Positions 1 to 36,686 of a DNA stretch of 64,000 bases are shown here, piece by piece. Source of the stretch: Cliona cf. orientalis. Taxonomy: Eukaryota; Porifera; Demospongiae; Clionaida; Clionaidae. Location of the stretch: positions 682,001 through 746,000 of the forward strand of contig OZ005702.1 of assembly GCA_963930775.1 (NCBI GenBank), given 5' to 3'. Numbering within the stretch: position 1 is the first letter of the stretch; every line of letters starts with the position of its first letter. The notes beneath the pieces were generated by a model that saw nothing but the letters and a program-made list of their open reading frames with translations, searched no databases and was not told the DNA's origin. The position numbers and the translations under genes are program-made.

Positions 1-545
1 CCACCGACCCGTGGACTCTGGCCATGCTCGTCTCTCTGCTAGACCAGGCTCAAGACATCAAGGACAAGTACCGTCAGCTGGTCATGCTGCACAGTGAGTA
101 GCCTACAAACTAGTCTCACAAGGCAGACCCTCCTATGGAAAAAAAGGTCTGGCTTGTGAGACTCAATAATATGATACTAGTTTTGTTCATGAGTAGTCCC
201 AGTCCAACTAGCTCCCCCCAAATAACTGGTATATTTCCCCTTGGATTGAGGCTGCTGACTGTACACAATGAGGGTATATACCTTCCCCCCTCCTCTCCAT
301 TATGCACTCCTGATACCATGCACCTGGTGTTACTATGTGACGACAATGATTATTGTGATGCATGCTTATGTGGTTGCTTTGAGCTGGTACATCTGGTCTC
401 ACACACACACACACATGCACACAATTATGCTTCAGTTGAAGAAGGTCTTCACCAGATCTCGGCAAAGGAGGTACAGAGTGCAGTGGACAAGAGCTACCAG
501 GCATCCTTACTCTCACTCCAGCAGTGGGCAGCAGCTGCTACCTAA
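1..545 (+). CDS. 3' end of an unidentified protein-coding gene (last two exons)
   Basis: Two exons, 1-93 and 436-545, join in phase across a GT-AG intron (donor GTGAGTAG at 94, acceptor ending at 435) and end in a TAA at 543-545. The C-terminus reads TDPWTLAMLVSLLDQAQ, continues IKDKYRQLVMLHIEEGLH and finishes SLLSLQQWAAAAT. It looks helical and hydrophilic, with no motif I can assign. The gene starts left of the window and converges on MOCS2B, whose stop lies about 107 bp away, so both 3' UTRs must be very short or overlap. I do not recognise the family. The splice phase and the conserved-looking sequence make it a real gene rather than a chance ORF. Confidence 0.6.
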
Positions 546-652
546 CTCACTCTCTCTTTGAACAAGGAATCATATTTTTTTTGCATAATTATGGTGTAAG
601 GATATTTCACATAGATTGTACAAAAAAATGCTGTAATTATATTATAGTCAAC

Positions 653-731
653 TCAAGCGTTGACTCTCCACTTGCACTCTTTATTCTCTTTCCATTCTCC
701 TTCACCCTCAGCATACATCTCCTAGGGTAGG

Positions 732-773
<42 letters not shown>

Positions 774-3700
774 GTCATGTATTTACCATTCACCCTTCCT
801 GTTAGCAGTGCCATGATTATAATTATGATTGCCTAAAGACAAAAAAGTTTTCACCTTTTTCCAGATAGTTGCGGTAGCCTTGACAGCGTCAATGGCGTGT
901 GCCACAGCCTCTATAGCCTCCTTCCTGTGCTCTGATGATGCTGCTATCATCACGCTAGCTTCACCAACAGGCACAACCCTGTGCAGTGTATATTATGTGC
1001 ATGTAGCATGGGAGTATATTTAGCTATGCTTGTATCAACGTGTAGGCTGATTACACATGCATACAATAAACTACAATGCTATGAGTTAAAGATCCCAAAT
1101 GGTCCCCTTTCATTTTCTCATATAGCTGGTCACATACAAAAAATTAATGTATTACAGCATAGAATTAGTATAAAATGAGAAGTGTTTACAAATTTTTACA
1201 TGTAATATTTTTTTTACAGTTTATTGATGCACTTTAGCTCCCTATGTACACCATACCTAAATGACAAAGTTCTCTCTATACTGGCTATGTACAATAATAT
1301 TATTGTCTATCAGTTTTAGCTGTAATAGTTTTATGATTTTCAGTGGTGTGTCTTGGGGCGCTCTTGGATCCATTTTGCAATCTTAGGCAGCGATTCCACA
1401 GCTGCCTTCTGCTTTGAAACTGCCGTGTAGCCCTCCAGTATACCTGGATTGATCATGACCAGAAATCCCGTTGTCAGGACAATGCTCATGTCGACGTAGG
1501 TGACCTTTGACCCATAAACCCACCCCTCGGGGGACCCGTTACTTGTGATACGCTTTTCCAATATTCTGAGGAATTCAGGAAGGTCCTTCTCTTGAAGGGT
1601 CTGCTTCATCTCCGTTTGTCTTTTCTCGTCCTTTTCGAAAAACATGAGAACCATTTTCGCCTGCATGTCCTCAATCAGATCATGCATCCCAGCCAGCTCA
1701 GCGTTTTCAAAAGCGTTTGATCCAGCTAGCCCGTGCTCTTCGGCGAGGTAGCGTGCAATCGGTCCACTGCCTGCTAGCAGTTTGCCGCCATCGACTTCCA
1801 GCACTGGTATCTTTCCGTAAGGAGTCTTTGGCTTGAATTCGGCCCATTCTTGGTCGGTGAGGCGTACGTCTTCGTAGGGAAGGCCAGCCTGTAGAAGGAT
1901 CCACCTGATTAGCTCACCCCTGCCCATTTGGTTGAAGTAGTACAGCTTATAGGAGGGCATTCTGATAGCTAGTATATACAAACAGCTATAAGCTTCAAAT
2001 TTCAAGTGATCTTTATAAAAACTAATGCAAATTTCGGTTTTGCTGGAAGTAACAGACTGAGAGTGAGAGGTAAGCTAAAGGTGGTCTATATTATTGAGGA
2101 TGGCCGTAATACAATAGTATTGCTACCAGCAGAGGCAGTTTGGAGTGGTTTGAAGTGGTTTAAACTGGTTTGGGTCTAGTCAGAACCCTCACTACACGCA
2201 ATAAAACCACCACATAATAAAATTCATACTCCCTTACATGTGTGTACATGCACTGCATACCAGCGGAAGCACCATGGCAACTGATTAGCCATACTGTACA
2301 TCCCCACAGCGGACAGGGATACTCTAAAATTGCATTGTTTTATGACCATAAATTTAATTAACTGGCTCTCAGTAATAGGCCTTTATACCGGAACAACAGT
2401 GAAGCTAATTAACCTTACTGGCATCACTCCCATGATCCACAATGCTTGCTTACTTTGTTCATGCAAATCACAAAGAAAATTCTAATGTGGTATGAATCAG
2501 ATGATTGAGTCGTGAAAAGATGAAGCACTTTATGCATCTATTATTTAATAGCATTGTGTCATAACTTTGTGAGTATGTTTAGAATTCAGTCTTTGGACGC
2601 TCCTTGATCCACTTGGCAATCTTTGGCAGGGCCTCAACAGAAGCCTTGAGCTTCAAAACAGCAGGATATGACTCCAGAGTGCTGAGACCGCTCCTAATGA
2701 TCATTTCAGTCACTACAGTCAGAAAAAAGTCTGGATAGGTGACCTTTGACCCATACGTCCATCCCTCTGGAGTCCCGTTTTGAGTAATTTTCCTCTCCAT
2801 GATCCCCAAATACTTTGCAAAGTGGTTCTTGACGAGATCTTTCTTCAGCTCTTCCTTTCGCACTTCCTCTCTCTCGTGAACGTAGATCAGTATCTTCTGT
2901 ACCAAATCTTCGATTACATCGTTGTTGCTGGCAATTTCGGCATTTTCAAGAGCAGTTGTTCCCGCAAGCCCAAACTCCTCTGCAACATAACGTTGAATCG
3001 GTCCCCTGCCTGCTAGTAGTTTTCCATCGATGTCTAACACGGGCAAGCCTCCGTGTGGGGTCTGGGGTTTGAAGACGGCCCATTCCTCCTGGCTTAGTCT
3101 GATATCCTCAAAAGGCACACCAGCATGGACGAAGATCCATCGGATCACCTCTGGCCCACCCATCATGTTGAAGTAGTAAAGTTTGTAAGCTGGCATCTTT
3201 CCTTCTCTCTCTGCTGGCTGTAGCTATTAATGTGTGTTGTACCACTCAGTCTGTGGGACATGAGGTAGCTAGGGTGGTGACTTCCTGGGTGTGGGTGCCA
3301 AGGAAATTCCCTCAATGCCTAATAATAGCTTTGCATGATGTGTTCGTTACTAAAAATTCTGATTTGGAGCTTAATAACAATTGCACAATTACACAAGGAC
3401 TCACACAATAATATTATGGATTACAGTGAAAATTTGAAATCACTAAAAGAAGGGGGAAACTAATTTCATGTCCAAATCTAGTAAGTCACTTGCTAGGAAG
3501 CACACATAAAGTTGCATTTAATGCTCGGTCTTGGGGCGCTCCTGGAGCCACTTGGCGATGTTTGGCAGGGCCTCGACGCTTGCCTTGAGTTTAGCTATTG
3601 CTGGGAAGGGCTCCAAAAACTGGGCCCCACCACTGAAGGTGATCAGCATATCAGTGATGAAAGCAAGATACATGTCAACATACGTCACCTTCTGACCAAA

Positions 3701-6700
3701 AATCCACCCCTCGGAAGATCCATTGTCCGTGATCCGTTTGTTAAGAATTCCGAAATACTTTGGAAGATGAGTATCGTTGAATTCTTTCTTGAGCTCTTCT
3801 TTCTTCTTCTCATCTTTTTCATAGTATTGTATCATTATACGAATAACAAGATCGTCAATCACATCATTGATGGTGGCAAGCTCAAAATTCTCGACGGGGT
3901 TCGATCCAGCAAGTCCGTGCTGCTCAGCAACGTAGCGAGCAATAGGCCCACTCCCTCCGTAAATTTTCCCGTCAATATCCAGCACTGGCATGGCCCCGAA
4001 GGGGGTTTTGGGCTTAAATTCTTTCCACTCCTCCTGAGTGAATCTGATGTCCTCATATGGAACACCTGCCTGGATAAAGATCCATCGGACCAGTTCCGCT
4101 CTCCCCCTGGCTTGAAAGTAGTACAGCTTGTAGGTAGGCATGTTTTTGGTGGTTGGTTTTTTCTTTCTTTCCTGCAGTCAAATCTTGAAGAGGAGAACAG
4201 AGAGAGAGGGGGGGGAAGTGAATTTCTTCAGCAACTGTTCAAATAATGCAACTTACTATACTTTCCTGCACAGATGGTAGGAAGCTTGGTCCGCTTCTTT
4301 TGTAGCTGCACGTTATTCCAAAGATAACCCCTGAAAAAGGTATACAGAGCATGCGCATACACGTACGTACACTTGCAAACGGCGCCCGCGCGTGCACTAT
4401 GTGTCAACGCAACGTCATAGATCAGGCATTTTCAGCTTTGAGCGCTCGAGCGGGGGCGATACCATCAGCGCAGACGAGTTGCCCTACCCACTGTCACGTA
4501 CTGCTTCTGTTCCCGCCCCATCTATTGACTACACTTCGAGCTAGCTAGTGATTATCCAAGTGAGTTGCCTCGAATGGGCTATTCCAGATAATGGGCGTAA
4601 ACCCCTGTGGAGGGAGAGATTTGCATTTTGTACCCTAATTACTACTTAAATTTGTAAAAATTAATTATCATCAATAGCTACTAATCAATTTTCTGATTTT
4701 ACCCCGAGACCATGCCTACCTACAAGTTGTACTACTTTCCTTCGAAAGGAAGAGCTGAGCTGATCCGATGGATCTTTGTCCAGGCAGGCGTTCCGTTCGA
4801 AGATAAGAGGGTAGCAGGCGAGGAGTGGGCTGCCTTCAAACCCCAAACCCCCTTCGGCAGCATGCCCGTCTTGGACGTTGATGGCAAGCTGCTTGCAGGC
4901 AGTGGGCCCATTGCACGCTACCTAGCTGAGGAGCTCGGGCTTGCTGGATCAAATGCTGTTGAGAACTGTGAGCTAGCCTCCCTCTACGATGTGATGGATG
5001 ATCTATTCGCAAAACTTTTGAGCTTCTTCTTTGAGAAAGACGAAGCACGAATGGCAACCTTGAAGAAGGACCTTGACGACACTCAACTCCCCAAGTATCT
5101 AGGAATCCTCGACAAGCATATTAAAGATAACGGGTCATCTGAGGGGTGGATTTATGGCCAGAAACTCACTTACATTGATCTGCGTGTTGCTCTGCTTTCT
5201 GATATTGTGGTTATGGTCGGTGGAGCAAATGTCTTGGATGCCTACCCAGATCTTGCAAAGCTCAAGGCAACTGTTGAGGCCCTGCCAAATATTGCAAAGT
5301 GGATCCAGGAGCGCCCAAAGACAGAGTATTAATCAGTTTGAACTTGAAAGGGACTACTCTTTAGGCCACATCAATTTGATTTCATGTTTCTTGTGCCGAC
5401 TGTTTATTTCTGAGATTTGGAGAAAAAATTAAAAACCACAAGCACGTGATCCACCAAGTATGCATTAAGCAGTCCACGACAAGGAGCCAAGAAAAGAAGC
5501 TTCTCTTGCTTCTTAGACTCTAGTTGTAACAAATTCTGTCATTTGATTGGTTGGAATCAAGTATCTAAGTCACTTAGTAAGCCTACAACTTAGAAAGCTT
5601 ACAACTTAGAATACTTACAACTTAGAAACCCAGTTTTTGATACCTAGGGCAACAACTTGCATCATGTTACTTAGCAACCTCATGCTAGAGCCTAAATAAG
5701 TTAGACACTTCAGCCAATGGGATCTACAGTCTTTAGAATACTTCAGACACTTATAAAACCCTCAGGCTTCGCCTTCGGGATTTTATATCAGTGTCTTCAG
5801 TATTCTAAATCCTGTAGATCCCTTGGCTTCAGTGTCTAACTTATATATAGTTGGTAAGAACTACCATCATGGCTTCATTTTATCAAGGCTCAGTGTTCTG
5901 GAGGAGTCTTGCATTGATTTCTTGGTCAAATCAGCTTGTTCATAGCAGGACAGCGAATTTTAATGATATTAATTTTGTAACATTTTAATGAGATTCATAA
6001 ATTTTTTGCTTACCTACAGACCCTATCTCAGCCTTCCATCTGTCCAAGAAACATGAAATTAATTTGATGTGGCCTTAGCTTCTATATAGTGTGTATAATA
6101 ATTATTATTCTATATTTATATAGCATTACTGTTCTATCAAATAATGATTAGATTATTAGCACAAAAAGTTAGCCCAAACTCCTCCATGACATAACATTGA
6201 ATCGGTCCCCTGCCTGCTAGTAGTTTTCCATTGATGTCTAACACGGGAAAGCCTCCGTGTGGGGTCTGGGGTTTGAAGACGGCCCATTCCTCCTGCCTTA
6301 GTCTTAAAAGGCACACTGGCATGGACGAAGATCCATCGGATCACCTCCAGCCCATGCACCCATCATGTTGAAGTAGTAAAATTTGTAAGCTGGCATCTTC
6401 TCCTTCTCCTCTCTGCTTGCCGTGTTGGTCTGTGGGACATGAGGTAGCTAGGGTGGTGACTTCCTGGGTGTGGGTGCCAAGGAAATTCCCTCAATACCTA
6501 ATAATAGCCTTGCATGATGCGTTTGATACTAAATTCTGATGTGGAACTCAATAATAACTATTACACTTTCTAATAACTGCACAATTACACAAAAAAGGAA
6601 TCACATAATATGGATTACAGACAGAGTGAAAATTTTAAATCACTAAAAGAAGGGGGAAACTAGTTTCATGTCCAAATCACTTGCTAGGAAGCACACATAA

Positions 6701-9700
6701 AGTTGTATTTAATGCTCGGTCTTGGGGCGCTCCTGGATCCACTTGGCGATGTTTGGCAGGGCCTCGACGCTAGCCTTGAGTTTAGCTATTGCCGGAAAGG
6801 GCTCCAAAAACTGGGCCCCACCACCAAAAGTGACCAGCATATCAGTGATGACAGCAAGATACATATCAACATACGTCACCTTCTGACCGAAAATCCACCC
6901 CTCGGAAGATCCGTTGTCTGTGATCCGTTTGTTGAGAATTCCGAAATACTTTGGAACATGTGTTTCGTTGATTTCTTTCTTGATCTCTTCTTTCTTCTTC
7001 TCGTCTTTTTCATAGAAAAATATCATGAGACGAATCACTAGATCCTCAATCACATCACTGATGGTGGCAAGCTCGAAATTCTCGACGGGGTTCGATCCGG
7101 CAAGTCCGTGCTGCTCAGCAACGTAGCGTGCAATAGGTATAGTCCCTCCGTAAAATTTCCCGTCAATATCCAGCACTGGCATGACCCCAAAGGGGGTTTT
7201 GGGCTTAAATTCTTTCCACTCCTCCTGAGTGTATCTGATGTCCTCGTATGGAACACCCGCCTGGATAAAGATCCATCGGATCATCTCGACTCTCCCTTTG
7301 GCTTGAAAGTAGTGCAGCTTGTAGGTAGGCATTTTTTTGGTTGTTTTTTTTCTTCTTTCCTGCAGTCAAATCTTGGAGAGGAGAGCAGAGAGAGGGAGGG
7401 AGTGAATTTCGTCGGCAAACGTTCAAATAATGCAACTTACTACACTGTCCTGCACAGATGGTAAGAAGTTTGGTTCGCTTCTTTTGTAGCTGCACGTTAT
7501 TCCAAAAATAACCCCTGAATGAAAGGCATACAGAGCATGCGCATACACTTATAAACGGCGCCGGCGCGTGCACGATGTGTCAACGCAACGTCATAGATCA
7601 GGCATTTCAGCTTTGAGCGAGGGCGGTACCATCAGAGCAGACGAGTTGCCCTACCCACTGTCACGTAGCTGATTCTGTTCCCACCCCATCTATTGTCTAC
7701 ACTGAGTTGCCTCGAATATAAAACGGCCGCAAGCTTGCCCCCTTTCAAGCGTGAAGTACAAAAAATTACCTAGCTTCTTTCTAACTCCTGCCCCACCCAC
7801 CACCTTTGTACAGGTTTCCGAGACCATGCCTACCTACAAGTTGTACTACTTTCCTGGAAGAGGAAGGGCTGAGCTGATCCGATGGATCTTCGTCCAGGCA
7901 GGCGTACCGTACGAAGACAAGAGGATAGCAGGCGAGGAGTGGGCTGCCTTCAAGCCCAATACCCCCTTCGGTGGCATGCCCGTCTTGGACATTGATGGCA
8001 AGCTGCTTGCAGGCAGTGGACCCATTGCACGCTACCTAGCTGAGGAGTTCGGGCTTGCTGGATCAAATGCCGTTGAGAACTGCGAGCTAGCCTCCCTTTA
8101 CGATGTGATGGATGATCTATTTGCAAAACTTGCGGGCTTCTTCTTCGAGAAAGACGAAGCACGAAAGGCAACCTTGAAGAAGGACCTTGACGACACTCAA
8201 CTCCCCAAGTATCTGGGAATCCTCGACAAGCGTATTAAAGATAACGGGTCATCTGAGGGGTGGATTTACGGCCAGAAACTGACTTATGCTGATCTGCGTG
8301 TTGCTCTGGTTTCCGATATTGTGGTTATGATCGGTGGAGCAAATGTCTTGGATGCCTACCCAGATCTTGCAAAGCTCAAGGCGACTGTTGAGGCCCTGCC
8401 AAATATTGCAAAGTGGATCCAGGAGCGTCCAAAGACCGAGTTTTAATTAGCTTGAATTCAAAAGGGAGACACTAATGACTACTCCTTAGCATCTATACAG
8501 TATGTATAATTATTATTTTATTATTATTATAGCTTTTAATACAGTTCTATCAAATAATCATTATTCTTGAAGATTATTAGCACAAAAGTAATAGCTAATG
8601 AAGCTACATGTAAGGCCACTCATTTTTTAAAATTAACCTGACAGACCGTAAAATTTAAAGCATCCAATAGCTGAGGTTACTACAGGCATATAATACCAAC
8701 CCAGAGACTGCCTTAAATTAAAATTATTTTTACTAACACACAGCACAAACCTCTAGACAGCTGGATCATGGAATACTATAGAAATGTTGACACTTGTAAT
8801 TAAAATTCTTTGGTTAAATTATCATCCGCCGGACCGACCCACCCTACTATTTTGTGGTCATGTTAGTTCAAACAAACAATTTATTCTGTGTGGCTTAAGA
8901 GGAAACTTTCTATATAGTCTTTGCATACGATAACTTGGTAAGCATCCATGCTTTAAATTTAGCACAAAATCTATGTGCATATCACCATAGGTGACCTTTA
9001 TCATTAGACCCAGGTCCACCCATTATTTTACTGTTATGTTGATAGTCAAAGCCGCAAAGAGCGTGCATGCGTACGCACATGGCCTGAGCAGTGACGTAAC
9101 AATACAAAACACGATCTATATGTACCGTGCAATAATTGATAGCGCATGGATAAATCAACGTGATATGAAATTATTGGTGAATTACAAAATAGAAATGAAT
9201 TTGCAGTAATAATTCAAAAGTTAGAAATCAGACTTTGGACGCTCCTTGATCCACTTGGCAATCTTTGGCAGGGCCTCGACCGTAGCCTTGAGCTTTGCAA
9301 CTGCTGGATAGGCATCCAGAGCAGTGGGACTGGACAGCAGAATTAAATCAGCTAGCTGAGCAACTCGAAGATCAACATAGGTGACCTTGTTGCCATAGAT
9401 CCATCCGTCAGCTGCACCGTTATCGGTTATCAACTTGTTGAGAATTCCGAGGTACTTGGGAAGGTGCGTCTCCTCTAATTCTTTCTTCAGAGCAGGCTTT
9501 CGAGCTTCCTCTTTTTCAAAGTGGTGCAGTACGACCCTCAGGAGTAGATCCTGAGTAACGTCAAAAATCGTACTGAGCTCGAAATTTTCAATTTCACTGG
9601 ACCCGGCTAATCCGTGTTGTTCGGCAATGTAGCGTTCAATCGGTGCGCTACCGCCGAAGATTTTCCCATCGATTTCCAACGAAGGCATGCCCCCGTAAGG

Positions 9701-12700
9701 AGTTTTGGGCTTGAAGACAGCCCACTCCTCTTGGGAAAATCGAATGTCTTCATAGGGGACACCGGCCTGGGTGAAAATCCATCGGATCAGCTCAGCCCGA
9801 CCGCGACCTTGGAAATAGTACAACTTGTAAGTAGGCATTTTATTTGTTCGAATTAGTTATCTCTATACACATAAAATTTGGAAGAAGAGAAATATTATTC
9901 ATGAATAATATTCAGAAATGGCAATTGTAAGAAGTTAGATTCTACTCACGATTTAGAAATAATTTATATTGCCAGAGGGCGTAGATTCGAATTCGTTGGA
10001 GTGAAAATTTGCTGCAGTGACTGAGGAAGGCTGCTGCTGTTTATGGCAAATTATTTGCAAAACACAACACTTTATGAGCCACGTTGGGTGGGCAAGCCCT
10101 AGCGTGCCATGCTGAGTGTAAAAAGCAATGACGTAATGTTCGCGCGCGTGCGTGCATGCGCAATAGCGCAATAGGAGGAGCTCAGGCCTCGAAACAGCTT
10201 AGTACATGCTCAGCTCAGGACAAGCGGGTGATCTATCTAGCGCTTCTTAAATTAACCTATTTGGATAGTGTATCTCAAGTAAGTAACTGTATGGAACTCA
10301 ACTTTATTTATAACGTACATATTTACAAACAGATAGGATAAAACTGTATGATCATGCCATATGAATCATTCATCAGGGTTCTCCCCAGTAATAAATTAAG
10401 GCAGAGCGGGTGGGCGTGGTTTGGGCGGAGCCTGTGACCACATCAAAGGATTTTGTTCCCACAACAAAGGGAATCTAGTGAAAAAGGCATAGGGGGCCGC
10501 TCTGCTGAAAGGGCCTGGGGAGAACACTGATTCATTGATGATCCCTAACCCTCTACAGGAACTGAAACTGAGAATTATGCCAACTTACAAGCTGTACTAT
10601 TTCAATTTGAAGGCCAGAGCTGAGCCGATCCGATGGATCTTTGCTCAGGCAGGAGTGAAGTATGAAGACATCAGATTGGATAAGGAACAGTGGGCTAAGA
10701 TGAAGCCAGACACTCCCAATGGTTCCCTCCCAATTCTGGATGTTGATGGGCAAATGCTCGCAGGATCTATCCCCATTTCTCGCTACGTTGCAGAACAGCA
10801 CGGGCTAGCTGGCGCAAATGAGATTGAAAACGCCCAGATTGCCGGCATCGACGATCTGCTTACAGATATTGCCAACCGATTCGCTCGATTTTGGTTCGAA
10901 AAAGACGAGGCAGCTAAGGCAGAGATGAAGAAAGACCTGGAAGAAAAGCACCTTCCCAACTACCTCTCCTTCTTGGAGAAATCCATCACGACGAATGCTG
11001 CCCCAGAGTGCTGGCTGTTTGGCAAACACGTGACCTACGTTGACCTGAGGCTGACTCTGTCGCTTGAGTTTGTGCAAATGGCTATGGGTAACGACAAATT
11101 CCTGGAGTCGTATCCGGGCATCTCAAAGTTGAGGCAGTCCGTATTGGCCCTGCCAAATATTGACAAGTGGATCAAGGAGCGCCCTCAGACCAACTTTTAG
11201 TCTGCTTATTAGAGCTTGCTTTGTGTAGCATATTATATAACAGTGAGACTGTACCCTGTGTTATTTGACTCCAATTTCTGTTGGTATTCAATCAGTTACT
11301 TAATAAGCATATTCATGAAACAATGGGACACACCTGTATACATATACACTCAGCAAAAAAAGCACTTAACACACCCTCCTTTTTTGCACTGGAGCATGCA
11401 TCACTACAATCGTGAGTTACATAATATTATGTAACAGCCCGTTGAGGTATGTGACACTCCTAGAGCTTGCATCAGCTGAACAGAAGCCATAGACTGATTA
11501 ATCAAGCTCACACAGATTAGATGCCTTCTGTAAACTACAAATATCACGTAATATAGGTACATGGTTACAGCAAGTAAAATAATTTCGTTGAAACTGTACT
11601 AAAGTTCCCAGATTTTTAATAGCTTTCCTTTTCTGGCGTTGGGCGCTCAGCAATCCACTTTGCTATCTTTGGGAGGGCGAGAACTTTACTATCGAGAGCG
11701 GCAACTCCAGGATAGTTATCGAGAACAGCTGGGTCCATTCTCTTTAGTACGCCAATGATTCGAGGGACACGGAGGTCAATGTAAGTGACCTTTGAGCCAA
11801 AGAGCCACCCTTCAGGAGAAGCATTCTTCTTGATCTGCTTCTCCAACACATCAAGGTACTTTGGTGCACCAGTTTCGAAAAATTCCTTCTTGAGGGCAGC
11901 CAATTTATCCTCGTCCTTCTCAAATTTAAACCTAAACAACGCATTTTGAATGTCCTGAATGACATCACCGATGCCTGCAAGCTGCGCGTTCTCGATGGCG
12001 TTTTCACCAGCAAGGCCGTGCTTTTCGGCCACGTAGCGAGCGATGGGTATGCTTCCAGCAATCTGCTTCCCGTCCACCTCCAAGACAGGCAGGCAACCTA
12101 AGGGCGTTGTGGGCTTCATAGCGGGCCAGTCTTGGAAGGGAACGCGAATGTCTTCGAACGGGACTCCGACCTGTAGAAAGATCCATCGAATCCACTCGGC
12201 TCTTGCCTCTAGGTTGAAGTAGGTCAGCTTGTAGGTAGACATCGTTGATTCCTGGCAGAAATATCTTGCAGTTTGCTCTCGGTGTACAGCAAGTCTTTGC
12301 TCGTTTTATAGCCCAGAGTTTCTCTCGCGCGTGTGGAGATTGTCACTGTATGCTTCCCAATCCGGAGATGTGTATATAAAACAATGTAAACTGAGATAAG
12401 TACGTGCGTGCTGCTCCACCGGAGGTGGAGTCAGCCAAAATCTGAGCATGCGCAGTAGCAAATCCACAGACCCCACTTATGCTAACAATGTCAACAGGCG
12501 CTTACCCGATCCTGTGGATTATAGCCAGCTTGCAGACAGGCCACTTCTCTCTCACATTAACACAGATTTGCTTCAGCTGCTTGAGTGCCATTGCATTGTA
12601 TGCCTCATATTCTAACTGAACAACTTCCCTGCCTTCACAACAATAAGCATGAAAAATAGCATAATAAATGAATTACTATACGATAAAAAATTATTACACA

Positions 12701-12937
12701 ATATCCACTCATTCTAACCTTGGAAATGATCCCTAGTTATACCTACACAATCATAAATAATCAATCGGAAGTTTAATTACGTTAGATTACATGAATACCT
12801 AAGAAGATGGAGACCCCTCCAGCTGAAGGATCCGTGACAAATTTAGTCACCTCCTCTTGGGAGATTCTCTCTGAAGTTATTCTCACAAGATCCCTATCAC
12901 TATCAGGTGCTTGATCACCTGAATGCATAAGGAGCAT
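653..12937 (-). CDS. MOCS2: Molybdopterin synthase catalytic (large) subunit MOCS2B, MoaE family
   Basis: MOCS2B transfers sulfur from thiocarboxylated MOCS2A to cyclic pyranopterin monophosphate to make molybdopterin, in the cytosol. Five coding exons (minus strand): 12937-12799, 12742-12719 (24 nt), 12632-12506, 978-855 and 721-653, giving 160 residues with all phases consistent. MoaE-family landmarks appear in order: GVSIFLG then [11 protein letters not shown] (residues about 40-60), [26 protein letters not shown], the lysine-rich [15 protein letters not shown] stretch containing the catalytic lysines, and WKENKEC near the end. The start ATG at 12937 is the first in the MoaE frame. The join between the third and fourth exons restores [12 protein letters not shown] exactly, although they are 11.5 kb apart. 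That intron contains the GST cluster. The coding region follows MOCS2A in the same strand and probably the same transcript. Confidence 0.88.
1340..1960 (-). CDS. Sigma-class glutathione S-transferase, copy 1
   Basis: A 206-residue single-exon GST that would conjugate glutathione to electrophiles or isomerise prostaglandin-like substrates in the cytosol (family knowledge). The thioredoxin-like N-domain starts MPSYKLYYF with the tyrosine expected to activate glutathione, followed by GRGELIRWI. The cis-proline region is KIPVLEVDG and the glutathione-binding loop is [15 protein letters not shown]. The helical C-domain follows, with [17 protein letters not shown] chose the ATG at 1960 because all paralogues start there; an in-frame upstream extension exists. 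A CAG that could be a splice acceptor lies immediately before the ATG, so a 5'-UTR intron is possible. It is the most downstream member of the array on this strand. The stretch 1961-2578 upstream of it is AT-rich with no gene that I can see. Confidence 0.92.
   Translation of the reverse strand: MPSYKLYYFNQMGRGELIRWILLQAGLPYEDVRLTDQEWAEFKPKTPYGKIPVLEVDGGKLLAGSGPIARYLAEEHGLAGSNAFENAELAGMHDLIEDMQAKMVLMFFEKDEKRQTEMKQTLQEKDLPEFLRILEKRITSNGSPEGWVYGSKVTYVDMSIVLTTGFLVMINPGILEGYTAVSKQKAAVESLPKIAKWIQERPKTHH
2579..3196 (-). CDS. Divergent sigma-class glutathione S-transferase, copy 2
   Basis: A 205-residue intact single-exon GST. The fold-defining parts are present: MPAYKLYYF, the cis-proline segment [10 protein letters not shown], and the C-domain ending [18 protein letters not shown]. 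Two conserved positions differ from all intact siblings. The usual GRAEL after the first strand is GGPEV, and the glutathione-loop serine of AGSGPI is arginine (AGRGPIQRY). In sigma GSTs that serine contacts the gamma-glutamyl group of glutathione, so binding may be altered (inference). The reading frame is undamaged, so the protein was probably kept under selection. The gene spans the left breakpoint of the tandem duplication, and a truncated copy of its first half lies at 6169-6396. Confidence 0.88.
   Translation of the reverse strand: MPAYKLYYFNMMGGPEVIRWIFVHAGVPFEDIRLSQEEWAVFKPQTPHGGLPVLDIDGKLLAGRGPIQRYVAEEFGLAGTTALENAEIASNNDVIEDLVQKILIYVHEREEVRKEELKKDLVKNHFAKYLGIMERKITQNGTPEGWTYGSKVTYPDFFLTVVTEMIIRSGLSTLESYPAVLKLKASVEALPKIAKWIKERPKTEF
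3197..3517. other. Spacer duplicated at 6397-6708
   Basis: No gene. The stretch beginning CTGTGGGACATGAGGTAGCT and running through the AAGGAAATTCCCTCAAT segment recurs almost unchanged at about 6430-6530. This shows that non-coding DNA was duplicated together with the GST genes. It contains the promoter side of GST copy 2 and the 3' side of GST copy 3. Confidence 0.7.
3518..4141 (-). CDS. Sigma-class glutathione S-transferase, copy 3
   Basis: A 207-residue single-exon GST with [20 protein letters not shown] at the N-terminus, the proline-containing AMPVLDIDG, the binding loop [14 protein letters not shown], and the C-domain signature [16 protein letters not shown]. It is closest in sequence to copy 5 (6709-7332), its duplicate in the second block. 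It is transcribed away from copy 4, so the two share the 570-bp spacer 4142-4711. A TTTGACTGCAG acceptor-like sequence lies some 30 nt upstream of the ATG and is repeated before copy 5, suggesting a conserved 5'-UTR intron (inference). Confidence 0.93.
   Translation of the reverse strand: MPTYKLYYFQARGRAELVRWIFIQAGVPYEDIRFTQEEWKEFKPKTPFGAMPVLDIDGKIYGGSGPIARYVAEQHGLAGSNPVENFELATINDVIDDLVIRIMIQYYEKDEKKKEELKKEFNDTHLPKYFGILNKRITDNGSSEGWIFGQKVTYVDMYLAFITDMLITFSGGAQFLEPFPAIAKLKASVEALPNIAKWLQERPKTEH
4142..4711. promoter_or_regulatory. Shared divergent promoter of GST copies 3 and 4
   Basis: This spacer separates two head-to-head GST genes. The GC-rich part, about 4272-4530, is nearly the same as 7460-7700 between copies 5 and 6, so both promoter regions descend from one. 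It contains GCATGCGCA at 4349-4357, resembling half of an NRF1 palindrome, a GC-rich GGCGCCCGCGCG segment, and an AACGTCAT that resembles a CRE. Which elements act is inference. Confidence 0.5.
4712..5332 (+). CDS. Sigma-class glutathione S-transferase, copy 4
   Basis: A 206-residue single-exon [23 protein letters not shown], then [21 protein letters not shown], then a C-domain with [17 protein letters not shown] and the family-typical end [11 protein letters not shown]. By eye it differs from copy 6 (7826-8446) at roughly 16 of 206 positions, consistent with duplication of the block that contains both copies 3 and 4. Its 3' flank is interrupted by a 711-bp inverted-repeat element inserted at a TTA, whereas the copy 6 flank is uninterrupted. 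Confidence 0.94.
   Translation: MPTYKLYYFPSKGRAELIRWIFVQAGVPFEDKRVAGEEWAAFKPQTPFGSMPVLDVDGKLLAGSGPIARYLAEELGLAGSNAVENCELASLYDVMDDLFAKLLSFFFEKDEARMATLKKDLDDTQLPKYLGILDKHIKDNGSSEGWIYGQKLTYIDLRVALLSDIVVMVGGANVLDAYPDLAKLKATVEALPNIAKWIQERPKTEY
5364..6074. mobile_element. Non-autonomous PIF/Harbinger-like element (MITE) with TTA target duplication
   Basis: The ends are inverted repeats of about 30 bp. The left end starts GGCCACATCAA and the right end finishes TTGATGTGGCC, both continuing into TTTCATGTTTCTTG on the respective strand. TTA flanks both sides (5361-5363 and 6075-6077). The corresponding position downstream of GST copy 6 (CTCCTTAGCATC near 8482) has a single TTA and no element, so it is an empty paralogous site. 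GGCC-type termini and a 3-bp TWA duplication are typical of PIF/Harbinger elements. No transposase ORF is present. Confidence 0.78.
5696..5844. repeat. Internal fold-back hairpin inside the MITE
   Basis: Two arms of about 65 nt are imperfect reverse complements. The left arm runs from ATAAGTTAGACACTTCAGCC to ACTTATAAAACCC; the right arm runs from GGGATTTTATATCAGTGTC to CAGTGTCTAACTTAT. They flank a short loop, TCAGGCTTCGCCTTC. A run of CTTACAACTTAGAA-like repeats lies just to the left. It may be a second element nested in the first. Confidence 0.6.
6169..6396 (-). pseudogene. Truncated GST fragment (5' half of a copy 2 duplicate)
   Basis: From the former ATG (6396) to about 6169 this matches the first half of GST copy 2, including its unusual AGRGPIQ loop, then stops abruptly at AGCCCAAACTCC. 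An 8-nt deletion and a 4-nt insertion relative to copy 2 (near 6300 and 6350) break the frame. The abrupt end coincides with the junction of the tandem duplication, so truncation was caused by the breakpoint and the indels came later. It cannot encode a functional GST. Confidence 0.85.
6709..7332 (-). CDS. Sigma-class glutathione S-transferase, copy 5
   Basis: A 207-residue single-exon GST, the block B counterpart of copy 3. Features are [34 protein letters not shown], then [11 protein letters not shown], in which the conserved serine of the glutathione loop is replaced by threonine, and the C-domain [16 protein letters not shown]. The hydroxyl is retained, so glutathione binding is plausible. 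It is divergent from copy 6 across the 7333-7825 promoter. The 6397-6708 stretch downstream on this strand is a duplicated spacer without a gene. Confidence 0.93.
   Translation of the reverse strand: MPTYKLHYFQAKGRVEMIRWIFIQAGVPYEDIRYTQEEWKEFKPKTPFGVMPVLDIDGKFYGGTIPIARYVAEQHGLAGSNPVENFELATISDVIEDLVIRLMIFFYEKDEKKKEEIKKEINETHVPKYFGILNKRITDNGSSEGWIFGQKVTYVDMYLAVITDMLVTFGGGAQFLEPFPAIAKLKASVEALPNIAKWIQERPKTEH
7333..7825. promoter_or_regulatory. Shared divergent promoter of GST copies 5 and 6
   Basis: This is the duplicate of 4142-4711. GCATGCGCA recurs at 7535-7543, with the same GC-rich block and the GTCAACGCAACGTCATAG stretch. Near its right end a pyrimidine-rich run followed by TTTGTACAG lies 12 nt before the copy 6 ATG and looks like a 3' splice site, so the first exon of copy 6 may be a short untranslated exon further upstream (inference). 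Confidence 0.5.
7826..8446 (+). CDS. Sigma-class glutathione S-transferase, copy 6
   Basis: A 206-residue single-exon GST, the block B counterpart of copy 4. Features: [42 protein letters not shown]-domain [18 protein letters not shown]-terminus ERPKTEF. The reading frame is open 75 nt upstream, but I placed the start at 7826 because it aligns with all paralogues and the upstream part carries a splice-acceptor-like sequence. The 3' flank preserves the uninterrupted TTAG site used to date the insertion beside copy 4. Confidence 0.94.
   Translation: MPTYKLYYFPGRGRAELIRWIFVQAGVPYEDKRIAGEEWAAFKPNTPFGGMPVLDIDGKLLAGSGPIARYLAEEFGLAGSNAVENCELASLYDVMDDLFAKLAGFFFEKDEARKATLKKDLDDTQLPKYLGILDKRIKDNGSSEGWIYGQKLTYADLRVALVSDIVVMIGGANVLDAYPDLAKLKATVEALPNIAKWIQERPKTEF
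8447..9220. other. Gene-free spacer inside the MOCS2B intron
   Basis: AT-rich DNA. The first 140 bp belong to the duplicated 3' flank of GST copy 6. The remainder shows no coding potential that I recognise and no clear repeat boundary. It ends at the 3' side of GST copy 7. Confidence 0.5.
9221..9838 (-). CDS. Sigma-class glutathione S-transferase, copy 7
   Basis: A 205-residue single-exon GST. Features: [45 protein letters not shown], then a C-domain with [17 protein letters not shown] and the end [11 protein letters not shown]. The cis-proline is present, although the segment reads GMPSLEI instead of the usual MPVLDI. The binding-loop serine is retained. It diverges from copy 8 across 9839-10576. 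It is not part of the recent block duplication; its similarity to the other copies is clearly lower than between copies 4 and 6. Confidence 0.93.
   Translation of the reverse strand: MPTYKLYYFQGRGRAELIRWIFTQAGVPYEDIRFSQEEWAVFKPKTPYGGMPSLEIDGKIFGGSAPIERYIAEQHGLAGSSEIENFELSTIFDVTQDLLLRVVLHHFEKEEARKPALKKELEETHLPKYLGILNKLITDNGAADGWIYGNKVTYVDLRVAQLADLILLSSPTALDAYPAVAKLKATVEALPKIAKWIKERPKSDF
9839..10576. promoter_or_regulatory. Divergent promoter region of GST copies 7 and 8
   Basis: The region contains CAATGACGTAATG (CRE-like) and a CpG-rich GCGCGCGTGCGTGCATGCGCA stretch that includes GCATGCGCA at 10154-10162, the same 9-mer as in the other GST promoters. The right end is occupied by a 156-bp inverted-repeat element (10374-10529). 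CCCTCTACAG just before the copy 8 coding region resembles a splice acceptor. Confidence 0.5.
10374..10529. mobile_element. Short hAT-like MITE in the GST copy 8 promoter
   Basis: The termini are CAGGGTTCTCCCCAG on the left and the reverse complement of CAGTGTTCTCCCCAG on the right, a 15-bp inverted repeat with one mismatch. ATTCAT flanks both ends (10368-10373 and 10530-10535). Subterminal GGCAGAGCGG and CCGCTCTGCT are also inverted, so the whole element can fold back. CAGNG-type ends suggest the hAT superfamily, although only 6 bp of target duplication are clear. It ends 47 bp upstream of the copy 8 ATG. Confidence 0.65.
10577..11200 (+). CDS. Sigma-class glutathione S-transferase, copy 8
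   Basis: A 207-residue single-exon GST. Features: [20 protein letters not shown], where alanine replaces glycine in the usual GRAE and proline follows the glutamate; [25 protein letters not shown]; and a C-domain with [17 protein letters not shown] and the end [11 protein letters not shown]. An in-frame upstream ATG at 10535 would add 14 residues, but a likely splice acceptor lies between the two, so I start at 10577. The spacer after it (11201-11615) is AT-rich with no recognisable gene. Confidence 0.92.
   Translation: MPTYKLYYFNLKARAEPIRWIFAQAGVKYEDIRLDKEQWAKMKPDTPNGSLPILDVDGQMLAGSIPISRYVAEQHGLAGANEIENAQIAGIDDLLTDIANRFARFWFEKDEAAKAEMKKDLEEKHLPNYLSFLEKSITTNAAPECWLFGKHVTYVDLRLTLSLEFVQMAMGNDKFLESYPGISKLRQSVLALPNIDKWIKERPQTNF
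11616..12242 (-). CDS. Sigma-class glutathione S-transferase, copy 9
   Basis: A 208-residue single-exon GST and the most diverged member. The start is [20 protein letters not shown], resembling insect sigma GST in KLTYFN. Then [25 protein letters not shown] and the C-domain [17 protein letters not shown] follow, with a longer tail ending RPTPEKESY. It lies nearest the upstream MOCS2B exon and is in the same orientation as MOCS2. TTTCTGCCAG lies just before the ATG and may be a splice acceptor. Confidence 0.92.
   Translation of the reverse strand: MSTYKLTYFNLEARAEWIRWIFLQVGVPFEDIRVPFQDWPAMKPTTPLGCLPVLEVDGKQIAGSIPIARYVAEKHGLAGENAIENAQLAGIGDVIQDIQNALFRFKFEKDEDKLAALKKEFFETGAPKYLDVLEKQIKKNASPEGWLFGSKVTYIDLRVPRIIGVLKRMDPAVLDNYPGVAALDSKVLALPKIAKWIAERPTPEKESY
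12446..12454. promoter_or_regulatory. NRF1-like GCATGCGCA motif upstream of GST copy 9
   Basis: The same 9-mer found at 4349, 7535 and 10154. It lies 204 bp upstream of the copy 9 ATG, between that gene and the MOCS2B exon at 12506-12632. Confidence 0.4.
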
Positions 12938-13112
12938 GTATTCTTGGGCATCTCTTCTCTGTATAGGCAATTTCTAACTCCTGCTATTGTCAGATCTATT
13001 ATTATCACTTTACAGTAGTGTATATAGTAGCCACAGAAAGTGTGCTAATCTGTTCTGAACTCAAACTCAAACTCAGAAACAATGGTGGCTTTTTAGAGGT
13101 TGCATTTCTTAC

Positions 13113-13617
13113 TCATCCTCCGCTGATGGGTGGGATCACTGCTACCTCATCACCAGCCTTCAGCTGCACAGTCTGATCAGAACCAACGTACTCCTGGTTC
13201 ACGGCAATGAGAATATTCTTCTCAATCTCAGAGAGTCTGAAAATTAAATAGTAAAGCATGGAACCATTACTATCATCAAATATTTCACGAGACATGATGA
13301 GGTTTATGACAAAAATTTAAAATTCGTCAAATGTCTGCACAATATTAAAATGATTCAAGCTGAGTCATACTACTTGGTACTAATTAATCCTCACGCTGGA
13401 TAAGCAGAGAGGATTTCCTCTAGCAGCTGTCTCCCGGTCAGGACGGTGGAGGGTAATTCTATCTTGGCTTCTGAGACTGCAGCTAGCTCACGACTTTTTG
13501 CAAAGAACAACAGGTTCACCTGTAGGACATAAAGATCATAAAATATTATATGAAGCAGTCAGTTAGAAAATATTTCCCACAGTACAGACAATCACACACC
13601 TGTACTTTTTCACCCAT
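13113..13617 (-). CDS. MOCS2: Molybdopterin synthase sulfur-carrier (small) subunit MOCS2A, MoaD family
   Basis: Ubiquitin-like sulfur carrier whose C-terminal glycine is thiocarboxylated and donates sulfur to MOCS2B. Three coding exons, 13617-13600, 13519-13395 and 13236-13113, encode 88 residues, the length of the human protein as I recall it. The N-terminus MGEKVQVNLLFFAKSREL is the MoaD first strand and helix. The C-terminus is GDEVAVIPPISGG, ending in the obligatory Gly-Gly. A donor GTAAGA begins immediately after the TGA stop (13113), so the intron separates the stop from the MOCS2B exon starting at 12958. This gives a spliced bicistronic message, as known for animal MOCS2, although here the second frame is the same as the first. 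Confidence 0.9.
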
Positions 13618-13896
13618 TTACATATACGTAGCACTATGAGAAGATTGCTGACTCAGCAAAAAGGACTAGCCCCGCCCACACACATGTGCATTAGATTTGT
13701 TGGGTGGAGTTCTGAGTGGAGTTCTTGGGGGTCGGGGGAGGAGTTTCAATCGACACGTCGACTGATTGACAAACGTGACGCCCATCATCCTCGTTGTGTG
13801 TGCTTCGAAACCAGTCTGTCTAGCTAGGCAGTCAGCACTTTTTTAAGCCTCCTTCTTCAGCCATATCACCAAGTGAAGCAGGATAATAAATCAAAG
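13618..13896. promoter_or_regulatory. Bidirectional promoter between MOCS2 and the RING E3 gene
   Basis: The two start codons lie 279 bp apart, head to head. The spacer includes CTAGCCCCGCCCACAC, a GC-box-like sequence, and the GC-rich GTTCTTGGGGGTCGGGG. No TATA box is evident. Shared control is inferred from the spacing. Confidence 0.45.
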
Positions 13897-16591
13897 ATGT
13901 CCGACGTAGCGAATTTCTTCTTACAAAACATCATAAGACCGAGACCCGTGCCCCCATACTTCTGCCACGCCTGTAACCACCGTTTTCAACATAACTCAGA
14001 CGACACGGTGAGTTTTATAAGGTTCTTAAACTCTATTAAACTCTCTTGATTGACACTTGTATGTGTGTGTATTAATAAAGAGATGGTATGAGTTTGAGTG
14101 AAAGATTGAGGGCATAGAAACTGAAAGTTATATATACCATTATCTATTAAACTATATCACAAAAAGTCCATTCAGGATTGATTATTTTACTAGAGGCTTG
14201 GTTATACGAAGCAATCCTAGACTGCCTGCTTCCCAAAAGTATTTTCATTAGTCCCTAAGCTTCCTATTCTAAATGAAGGTCAACTATGTACTTGGCATTG
14301 TACGTAACATGTCGCTAGCTATAGCTAGCGTATATAGTCGATCTATCATTTGTGAATATTTCACTCTCTCATATTCACAGAGCTCCTGTGATCCAGTGTG
14401 CCCCCAGTGCGGGTCAGACTTTGTGGAAAAGATTGAACAAGAGTAGGTTCCAGGGAGAGAGAGATTGATATATAGTGTGCTCTATTTAGAATTATAAGAT
14501 TTGGCTATAAAATTAATATACGTGCACATTGTAGTTCATGAAGTGTGTGAGAGAGAGGGAGGGAAGGATACAAATATCGAGTTAGACTCTGTCTATCTAC
14601 CCATTCTTGCAGGGAGCAGCGTACAGCTGGGGGAGGTGATGGAGCAGGCAACACGTCAACTTCAACGGTGACAGTGAGAGGCCCCAACAGTATCACCACT
14701 ACCACCACTACAACCGTTAACGAGGAGGAGGAAACCCCTATGGTTACCGATGACGACCCCGAACCAGAAATTATTGGAGTAAGTGTATGATAACTTGAGT
14801 TTTCATCTACATGTAATCTTGAGAGATATAATTAAAGATTAGAGTGTGGTGTTTATGGAATTGTAGTTACGATTTCCTATTAGGAAAGGGGTGGGGAAAT
14901 TTCCCCTATTTTTTAATGAATATTATCTATTATCGCATAACTACACCTTGATGAGTATTGTTCTCCCCAAGCCATAGATTGAATGTTTCTTTTTTTATTT
15001 TGTAGCAAGAAGACGGTCCTCGCAGAAGGCCAAACCCCCCGACCTCCAGGGCCACACCCTCTATGCCCCCTGGCGCCATGGGGGGACAGGGAGGATCTCC
15101 GTACGGAGGATATGGTGGGCCAATGGGTGGACCTTTCGTGAGAATACGAGGGCCAAGAGGACGGCCTCTAGCTCAGTGAGACACTCTATTAAATTTTTGT
15201 GTTTTATTGTTTCATTTTTAAAGGAAAATCCACTGAACTTGACTTTTTCTTCTCTCTCTCCCTCCACCCAATACAGAATGTTACATGAGCACATTGAGAA
15301 CTTGATGAATCCTAACAGAGCACGTAAGCAGGATATTATAATTATTCAGGGGTTCTCCTTAAATCGTGTCTGAGTGATACTATACCACTGTGGTATGTCC
15401 ATATTGAAAGTTGTGTGTGTGTTGGTCCCTGAGGCCATGTTCAGAGGGCATGTTCGCATGTGGGACATCGTATCCATGGCAACCCTGGACTCTAGACTGA
15501 GAAAGCATGGTTCTGTTTAACACTGTATCGCTCACGTCACGTGCATACACAGGTCAACGTTCTGAACGTGACCACACTGATGGTTCTGATGACACAGCCC
15601 CTCCCTCGAGAAGGCACCGGCGACACACCAGTCCCCCGAGGGACGGGGAGGAGGACGAAGAAGATGATGAGGACGAGGAGGCGGAAAGAAGGAGGGAAGG
15701 GGAGCGGACGACGACGGGGGGAGACGGAGGGGAACAGAGTAGCGGAGACGGAGATGGAGCGGGGGGAGGGACGAGTGCGGCCGACCTCCACTTTTCCGTC
15801 GGTCTCCCTTGGTATCTCATGCTACACGGACGGGACCACGCACGTCGGAGTCATCCCCAGGGGCGTGGCCGGGCCCGCGGCGGGGGACAGCCACGCCCAC
15901 AGCAGAATCCTCAAGTGCCAAGATTTGGAGTCCCTCTGGTCATTGGATTCAAGTAAGTTTATTCTCTTGAGAACTTCTTGTGAGGTTAGACTTGTTATTC
16001 TTCGCAGCTCCGGACCAGTCCACAGTAGCCCTGGTGATTATGCCTGGGGGCCGTCTGGTCTCGATGATATCATCACACAGATGCTGGCCAACCTTGAGGA
16101 CAGCGGCCCACCCCCGGCCAAGGAGGAAAAGATCGAGGCAATTCCAAAGATTTCTGTTACAGCAGAAGACATTGTTCTTTGTAAGAGAGCGGGAAGGAGG
16201 GAGAGAGAGAGAGAGAGAGGGAGAGAGAGAGAGAGGGCATACACTGTGGAACAAATTTGGTTCTAATGTGAATTTAAGTGGATCCTCTTTTTCTTCCTTG
16301 AATGAATAATATTATAGGTAATGACTGTTCGGTGTGTAAGGAGCAGTTCACAGTCGGTGAGGAGTTATTGAAGCTGCCGTGCACTCACCTCTACCACAGA
16401 GACTGTGTCATCCCATGGTTGAAACTGGTAAGTCGCTCTTTCATTCCTCCAACAACTTCATAGCACCATCCTTCCCTCTCTCTCTTCCTCCCTCCCTCCC
16501 TCTCCCCCTCATGCAGCATGACACCTGTCCTACATGTCGTTATCATCTAAACACTGGCAAGTACGAACCTGATCAAGAGGCCGCCAACTAG
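13897..16591 (+). CDS. RNF126: RING-H2 E3 ubiquitin ligase, RNF126/RNF115 type
   Basis: Cytosolic ubiquitin ligase of the RNF126/RNF115 family, which ubiquitinates client proteins such as those held by the BAG6 machinery (family knowledge). Nine coding exons: 13897-14007, 14381-14442, 14613-14778, 15006-15175, 15277-15323, 15553-15952, 16008-16180, 16318-16427 and 16517-16591. The N-terminal zinc ribbon has [10 protein letters not shown] and [10 protein letters not shown] cysteine pairs, the substrate-binding part of this family. A long low-complexity middle, rich in acidic and Arg/Gly residues, sits in exons 4-6. The family-diagnostic [18 protein letters not shown] precedes the [12 protein letters not shown], then [10 protein letters not shown], then CPTCR. 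The 400-nt acidic/RG exon is longer than I recall for vertebrate orthologues and may contain a retained intron. Confidence 0.87.

Positions 16592-29097: not shown

Positions 29098-36686
<7,589 letters not shown>

Follow-up and report, generated by a model that had tools for sequence, protein, structure and literature searches.

Nine sigma-type glutathione S-transferase genes nested in an intron of MOCS2 in the sponge Cliona cf. orientalis

We analysed a 64-kb stretch of the Cliona cf. orientalis genome (the window; contig 14, positions 682001-746000; contig 14 is 8.402 Mb long, and the genome comprises 216.8 Mb in 149 contigs) that carries the molybdopterin synthase gene MOCS2, and found that one intron of the MOCS2B coding region (positions 979-12505 of the window; Table 1) holds nine intact single-exon open reading frames (ORFs) for glutathione S-transferases (GSTs) of 205-208 amino acids, six on the host strand and three on the opposite strand, together with one GST fragment. 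To judge from the sequence, it is quite probable that a retrocopied GST founder entered a pre-existing MOCS2 intron and grew in place into an array, that the host gene stayed intact, and that the GSTs are independently transcribed while the intron is spliced out whole. An intronless copy of a sigma-type GST mRNA would have inserted into the phase-2 intron in an ancestor of a sponge group; tandem and inverted duplication would then have multiplied it to nine genes and a remnant, with MOCS2 left intact. Each GST would have a promoter of its own, with shared head-to-head promoters in three intergenic gaps (g3/g4, g5/g6, and g7/g8), and the MOCS2 pre-mRNA would run through the array and lose the 11.5 kb as a single intron.

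MOCS2B is complete on the minus strand: its five coding exons encode 160 amino acids without an internal stop, and all four introns are GT-AG. The bounds of the array-bearing intron are exact (donor CGG/gtaagc after 12506, acceptor tgcacag/GG before 978). Once spliced, the joined protein matches the Pfam MoaE profile in one frame (135.7 bits, profile positions 1-113 of 114); its best match in PDB is 5mpo_C, a molybdopterin synthase catalytic subunit that we take to be human (E = 2e-44), and the alignment runs without a gap across the HRIG/VVPV join, with a single gap near the C-terminal end. An initial annotation of this DNA had named the exons at 12506-12632 and 855-978 as neighbours around the intron; splice signals and alignment bear out both exons and the intron bounds, and to that exon list a 24-nt microexon and the last exon (653-721) have to be added. 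MOCS2A precedes MOCS2B on the minus strand, and ThiS matches its joined protein from residue 10. The five other introns placed in MOCS2A and MOCS2B measure 56-158 bp. A MoaE family search of the whole 217-Mb genome (three candidates scored) gave two matches, both of them exons of the MOCS2B in the window, and a ThiS search gave one match for MOCS2A. The MoaE search thus gave no second MOCS2B, and the two halves of the gene do not lie at different loci; either outcome would have contradicted the initial annotation. MOCS2 is the only molybdopterin synthase large-subunit (MoaE) locus matched in the genome, and the host coding sequence is intact.

The annotation had also counted nine intact sigma-class GSTs on both strands plus a fragment inside the intron, and this count holds (six minus, three plus), with all nine ORFs exceeding the Pfam cut-offs for GST_C_3 and GST_N. 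By similarity the array genes are sigma-type GSTs: g6 resembles sigma-class GSTs and haematopoietic prostaglandin D synthase along its whole length, and its PDB matches comprise 40 sequences at E ≤ 1e-20, 13 of them named prostaglandin D synthases and most of the remainder presumably sigma-class GSTs. Tyrosine at position 8, which we take to be the catalytic residue, is invariant in 28 aligned GST rows (9 from the window). Part of the array is a block copy, in which part of g2, g3, and g4 gave the fragment, g5, and g6: positions 2967-4535 and 6171-7703 (about 1.6 kb) share 86.6% identity, and 4704-5353 and 7818-8467 (650 bp) share 92.9%. The ratio of nonsynonymous to synonymous change (dN/dS) is 0.25 for g3/g5 and 0.27 for g4/g6; for older pairs of the array, synonymous sites are close to saturation or beyond it (dS ≥ 1.37 or not computable).

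The genome itself contains introned relatives of the array. A whole-genome search with g6 gave 16 matches: ten in the array (its nine genes and the fragment), one on contig 5, and five on contig 12, each of these five an exon. The GST_C_3 profile gave 17 matches, nine of which are the array; others lie on contigs 5, 7, and 15. Contig 12 (L020 3277-6857) carries two tandem GSTs, the nearest introned relatives that the g6 search found in the genome, with matched exons 44-55% identical to g6. Four introns interrupt the coding sequence of both, with the same placement and the same phases (1, 1, 0, 0), whereas none of these four positions is occupied in any of the nine array genes. Because the contig 12 genes share four coding introns and the array genes have none, the founder of the array was probably a retrocopy of a sigma-type GST. 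A GST_C_3 match on contig 5 near 187,000 was examined as a nearer relative and set aside, since it proved to be a distant GST spread over several pieces, with 21-45% identity to the queries. Alternatively, the GSTs may have arrived on a DNA segment, with their coding introns lost in some other way, or there may have been several entries; the possible introns in the 5′ untranslated regions (5′-UTRs) of several array genes would suit this account. We consider it unlikely, since the nine genes that lack all four introns fall in one clade, which makes one intron loss at the founder the simpler history.

Contigs of other assemblies suggest that GSTs may be nested in the MOCS2B intron of other animals as well. 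A search of these assemblies with the g6 protein gave 349 proteins, of which 120 were listed, and the figures below rest on these 120 of 349; ORF searches gave 20 rows with exon 4 as query and 7 rows with exon 1, and both exon searches favour near relatives. The assemblies that hold MOCS2B exon ORFs and GSTs are, we infer, from sponges. Contig size in bp served as a fingerprint, so that an exon row and a GST row of equal size were taken to be the same contig. Ten of the 27 exon rows (8 of 20 for exon 4, 2 of 7 for exon 1) equal a listed GST row in contig size, as compared with 0.31 matches on average and at most 4 in 20,000 runs of a null in which the sizes were jittered (multiplied by 0.8-1.25). 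One match, at size 972 (exon-4 row P0134 and two GST rows), was discounted, since the source labels differ (lgn and ena) and the chance of such a match is 3.8%. Seven contigs would then carry exon 4 and listed GSTs (445635, 820743, 142603, 12597, 5779, 4110, and 2141 bp), and two would carry exon 1 and listed GSTs (817295 and 7563 bp); for the shortest sizes taken singly a chance match is not negligible (1.6% for 2141). This distribution suggests that array-type GSTs are linked to the downstream flank of the intron on seven contigs and to the upstream flank on two. Together the nine contigs would hold at least 20 GSTs, two of them identical to g3 and g7, and 18 others. Both of the identical GSTs are on the 445635-bp contig, which therefore apparently comes from the same species; its exon-4 ORF is 98% identical to that of the window.

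We also built a GST tree of 123 rows (111 of them homologues; nine of the 120 listed were left out, two being identical to window genes and seven shorter). All nine window GSTs fall in one clade of 87 rows with a Shimodaira-Hasegawa-like approximate likelihood ratio test (SH-aLRT) value of 95, obtained by a quick method, and the same clade takes in all 18 of the linked-contig GSTs that the tree includes. The remaining 33 homologues, which fall elsewhere, include none from a counted contig, a figure to be read with the preference of the exon search for near relatives. Relatives of g1, g2, g3/g5, g4/g6, g7, g8, and g9 are each present among the 111 homologues. There is a hint that the nest is confined to one sponge group: a link to a listed GST exists for seven of the nine exon-4 rows whose sequence is of the window's type, versus none of the 11 rows of other types (Fisher p = 0.0005, with the types drawn by eye after the matches had been seen). 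The MOCS2B intron looks older than the link to the GSTs, since in 13 of the 20 exon-4 rows the ORF reaches beyond the upstream end of the exon, and in all 13, whether linked to a GST or not, the added stretch is something other than exon 3 sequence. For the DNA of the relatives we turned to two further sources: a general genome-contig collection gave 14 loci, all titled as bacterial metagenome-assembled genomes and 26-33% identical, which were not used, and a viral-contig collection gave no match.

Several observations weigh against this history. The junction from 12505 to 979 and the expression of the GSTs are predictions from sequence, and the linkage on other contigs was drawn from equal size rather than from read DNA. 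Among the exon 1 and exon 4 rows, the two flanks of the intron occur together on no contig other than that of the window. The GSTs of the linked contigs are of the g1, g3/g5, or g7 type or are related to g4/g6, while g2, g8, and g9 types occur, among the matches listed, on other contigs only. Two of the nine exon-4 rows of the window type (contigs 54333 and 1551) and all 11 rows of other types have no counted link to a GST among the 120 of 349 listed. Retroposition is proposed from the absence of coding introns. Introns in the 5′-UTR are possible, as the ATG of at least four array genes (g3, g5, g7, and g8) is preceded by a donor-like site and, judged by eye, by an acceptor-like one. The intronless state is also not peculiar to the array, because contig 5 carries a single-exon GST, presumably alpha-like, that is 35% identical to g6 (L021 3059-3823). 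With these points weighed, we infer that exon and GST rows of equal size lie on the same contigs, that retroposition was the founding step of a single entry, and that independent promoters and normal splicing across the array hold; most likely the GSTs are independently transcribed enzymes over which MOCS2 splices.

A link in expression between MOCS2 and the GSTs is possible, and it would add to independent transcription rather than exclude it: MOCS2 transcription through the array, or shared control, might tune GST output or the reverse, and selection might keep both together. The linkage seems to be kept in other assemblies, and passive lock-in accounts for that persistence equally well. Because six of the nine GSTs lie on the host strand, read-through and competition for poly-A signals are conceivable, and three of these six have an AATAAA/ATTAAA-like signal within 400 nt. 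As for shared control, the window holds two perfect palindromic Maf-type sites (TGCTGACTCAGCA), as compared with 0.004 expected per window under a first-order model. One lies 5′ of MOCS2A (13646-13658), and it is less telling because of the second at 32063. Inside the intron, degenerate RTGASnnnGC sites number six versus 3.6 expected by length; on the other side, there is no perfect Maf-type site, strict TGACnnnGC sites number two versus 3.1 expected, and half sites six versus 5.4. Antioxidant/Maf sites were accordingly rejected as a shared switch: the strict forms are not enriched in the intron, and the motif scan gave no clear shared element. In a comparable nest, that of the insect TipE genes, the nested genes are reported to correlate poorly with their host in expression (PMC3240667). 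Overall, we regard such coupling as improbable. Slightly more doubtful still is its stronger form, in which the main sigma GST stock of one sponge group has long been confined to the intron of the sole molybdopterin synthase gene and is transcriptionally coupled to it, so that detoxification and cofactor synthesis would be co-tuned by read-through or by a shared Maf/Nrf-type input.

The size of the gene-bearing intron (11.5 kb, versus 56-158 bp for the other introns placed) could mean that MOCS2 is broken or split, with exons 4-5 not joined to exon 3; this is very improbable, as the reading frame, the splice sites, and the sequence similarity are preserved on both sides of the intron, and no MoaE match lies elsewhere in the genome. 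Even less credible is an assembly artefact in the repetitive array, given that the window has no N bases, that a 445,635-bp contig (as against the 8.4-Mb contig of the window) carries proteins identical to g3 and g7 with a 98% identical exon-4 ORF, and that further matches in contig size tie GSTs to exon 4 as well as to exon 1.

Table 1. Positions in the window of the MOCS2 coding exons, the array-bearing intron, and the nested GST genes.
Feature	Positions	Strand	Basis or remark
MOCS2A first coding exon (MGEKVQ)	13600..13617	-	placed by reading
MOCS2A middle exon	13395..13519	-	splice reading, Pfam profile match
MOCS2A last coding exon, ends ...PPISGG*	13113..13236	-	splice reading, Pfam profile match
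MOCS2B first coding exon	12799..12937	-	start codon putative
MOCS2B microexon, 24 nt	12719..12742	-	with flanking split codons reads GITRDHFQG; aligns with GTTRNNFEG of 5mpo_C
MOCS2B exon 3, ends ...HRIG	12506..12632	-	splice sites, profile match, 5mpo_C alignment
MOCS2B intron 3 (phase 2; 11,527 bp), contains the GST array	979..12505	-	splice signals, gapless join
MOCS2B exon 4 (VVPVGEAS...IWKK)	855..978	-	splice sites, profile match, 5mpo_C alignment
MOCS2B last coding exon	653..721	-	splice sites; 5mpo_C alignment covers part
GST g1, 206 aa, single exon, sigma type by similarity	1340..1960	-	ORF, Pfam, genome search, tree
GST g2, 205 aa	2579..3196	-	ORF, Pfam, genome search, tree
GST g3, 207 aa, head to head with g4	3518..4141	-	ORF, Pfam, genome search, tree
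GST g4, 206 aa	4712..5332	+	ORF, Pfam, genome search, tree
GST fragment, copied in truncated form from the 5′ part of g2 by block duplication	~6171..6400	-	block alignment; g6 search match
GST g5, 207 aa, duplicate of g3, head to head with g6	6709..7332	-	ORF, Pfam, block alignment
GST g6, 206 aa, duplicate of g4	7826..8446	+	ORF, Pfam, block alignment
GST g7, 205 aa, head to head with g8	9221..9838	-	ORF, Pfam, genome search, tree
GST g8, 207 aa	10577..11200	+	ORF, Pfam, genome search, tree
GST g9, 208 aa	11616..12242	-	ORF, Pfam, genome search, tree

On either side of MOCS2 lie other genes. A plus-strand coding sequence at 1-545 converges on MOCS2B and apparently stops some 110 bp short of the stop codon of that gene, and a plus-strand gene at 13897-14446, presumably RNF115/126-like, starts with a zinc ribbon (Zn_ribbon_19) and stands head to head with MOCS2. 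A hairpin-forming repeat (5660-5850; arms 5693-5720/5820-5847 and 5719-5758/5783-5822) lies between g4 and the fragment, with at least 39 further near-full copies in the genome at 96-100% identity (40 of 327 candidates scored); it is apparently a recently active element resembling miniature inverted-repeat transposable elements. No Rfam family was matched at gathering scores in positions 1-14500.

Taken together, the interpretation in the initial annotation is partly supported: the anatomy supports a GST expansion nested in a MOCS2 intron, the apparent linkage in other assemblies extends this, and the proposed mutual effect on expression is a possibility. The locus offers a sponge example of an enzyme family grown inside an intron of another gene's coding region. 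The introned relatives outside the array and the assemblies with and without the apparent link provide material for comparison, which could help to decide between lock-in and shared control as the reason why such nests are kept. A further hint from the arrangement is that gene prediction programs may divide MOCS2 in animals of this kind.

A cluster of paralogues nested in an intron is a known architecture, of which MOCS2/GST is a further case, in a sponge. The initial annotation knew of no described case; this can stand for the gene pair, since a literature search of mostly non-subscription papers found no report of MOCS2-GST nesting, and fails for the architecture, because paralogue clusters in introns (in Flo-2, CG18675, and TSPEAR) have already been described in insects and mammals. 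In four insects, 10-12 genes for GMC oxidoreductases lie in one Flo-2 intron (PMC1891103). As in the sponge array, the nested genes are paralogues that code for enzymes and share a single intron of a conserved host; the Flo-2 cluster is considered a product of tandem duplication and was kept across the four insects (PMC1891103). The Flo-2 case differs in gene families and phylum, in the size of the intron (more than 83 kb in D. melanogaster, versus 11.5 kb in MOCS2B), and in orientation, almost all nested genes being opposite to the host, whereas six of nine lie on the host strand in the sponge (PMC1891103). The insect TipE/Teh genes are clustered in the last intron of CG18675; here too a conserved, single-copy host holds several paralogues in a single intron, the arrangement is conserved across species, and one of the paralogues arose by retrotransposition. 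Unlike the sponge array, they are up to four genes for sodium-channel auxiliary subunits, and some lineages escaped the nesting (PMC3240667). Similarly, the human KRTAP genes lie in introns of TSPEAR, and share with the array the placement of many single-exon paralogues in another gene's introns; they differ in encoding hair and wool proteins, in occupying several introns, and in belonging to mammals (PMC8657448).

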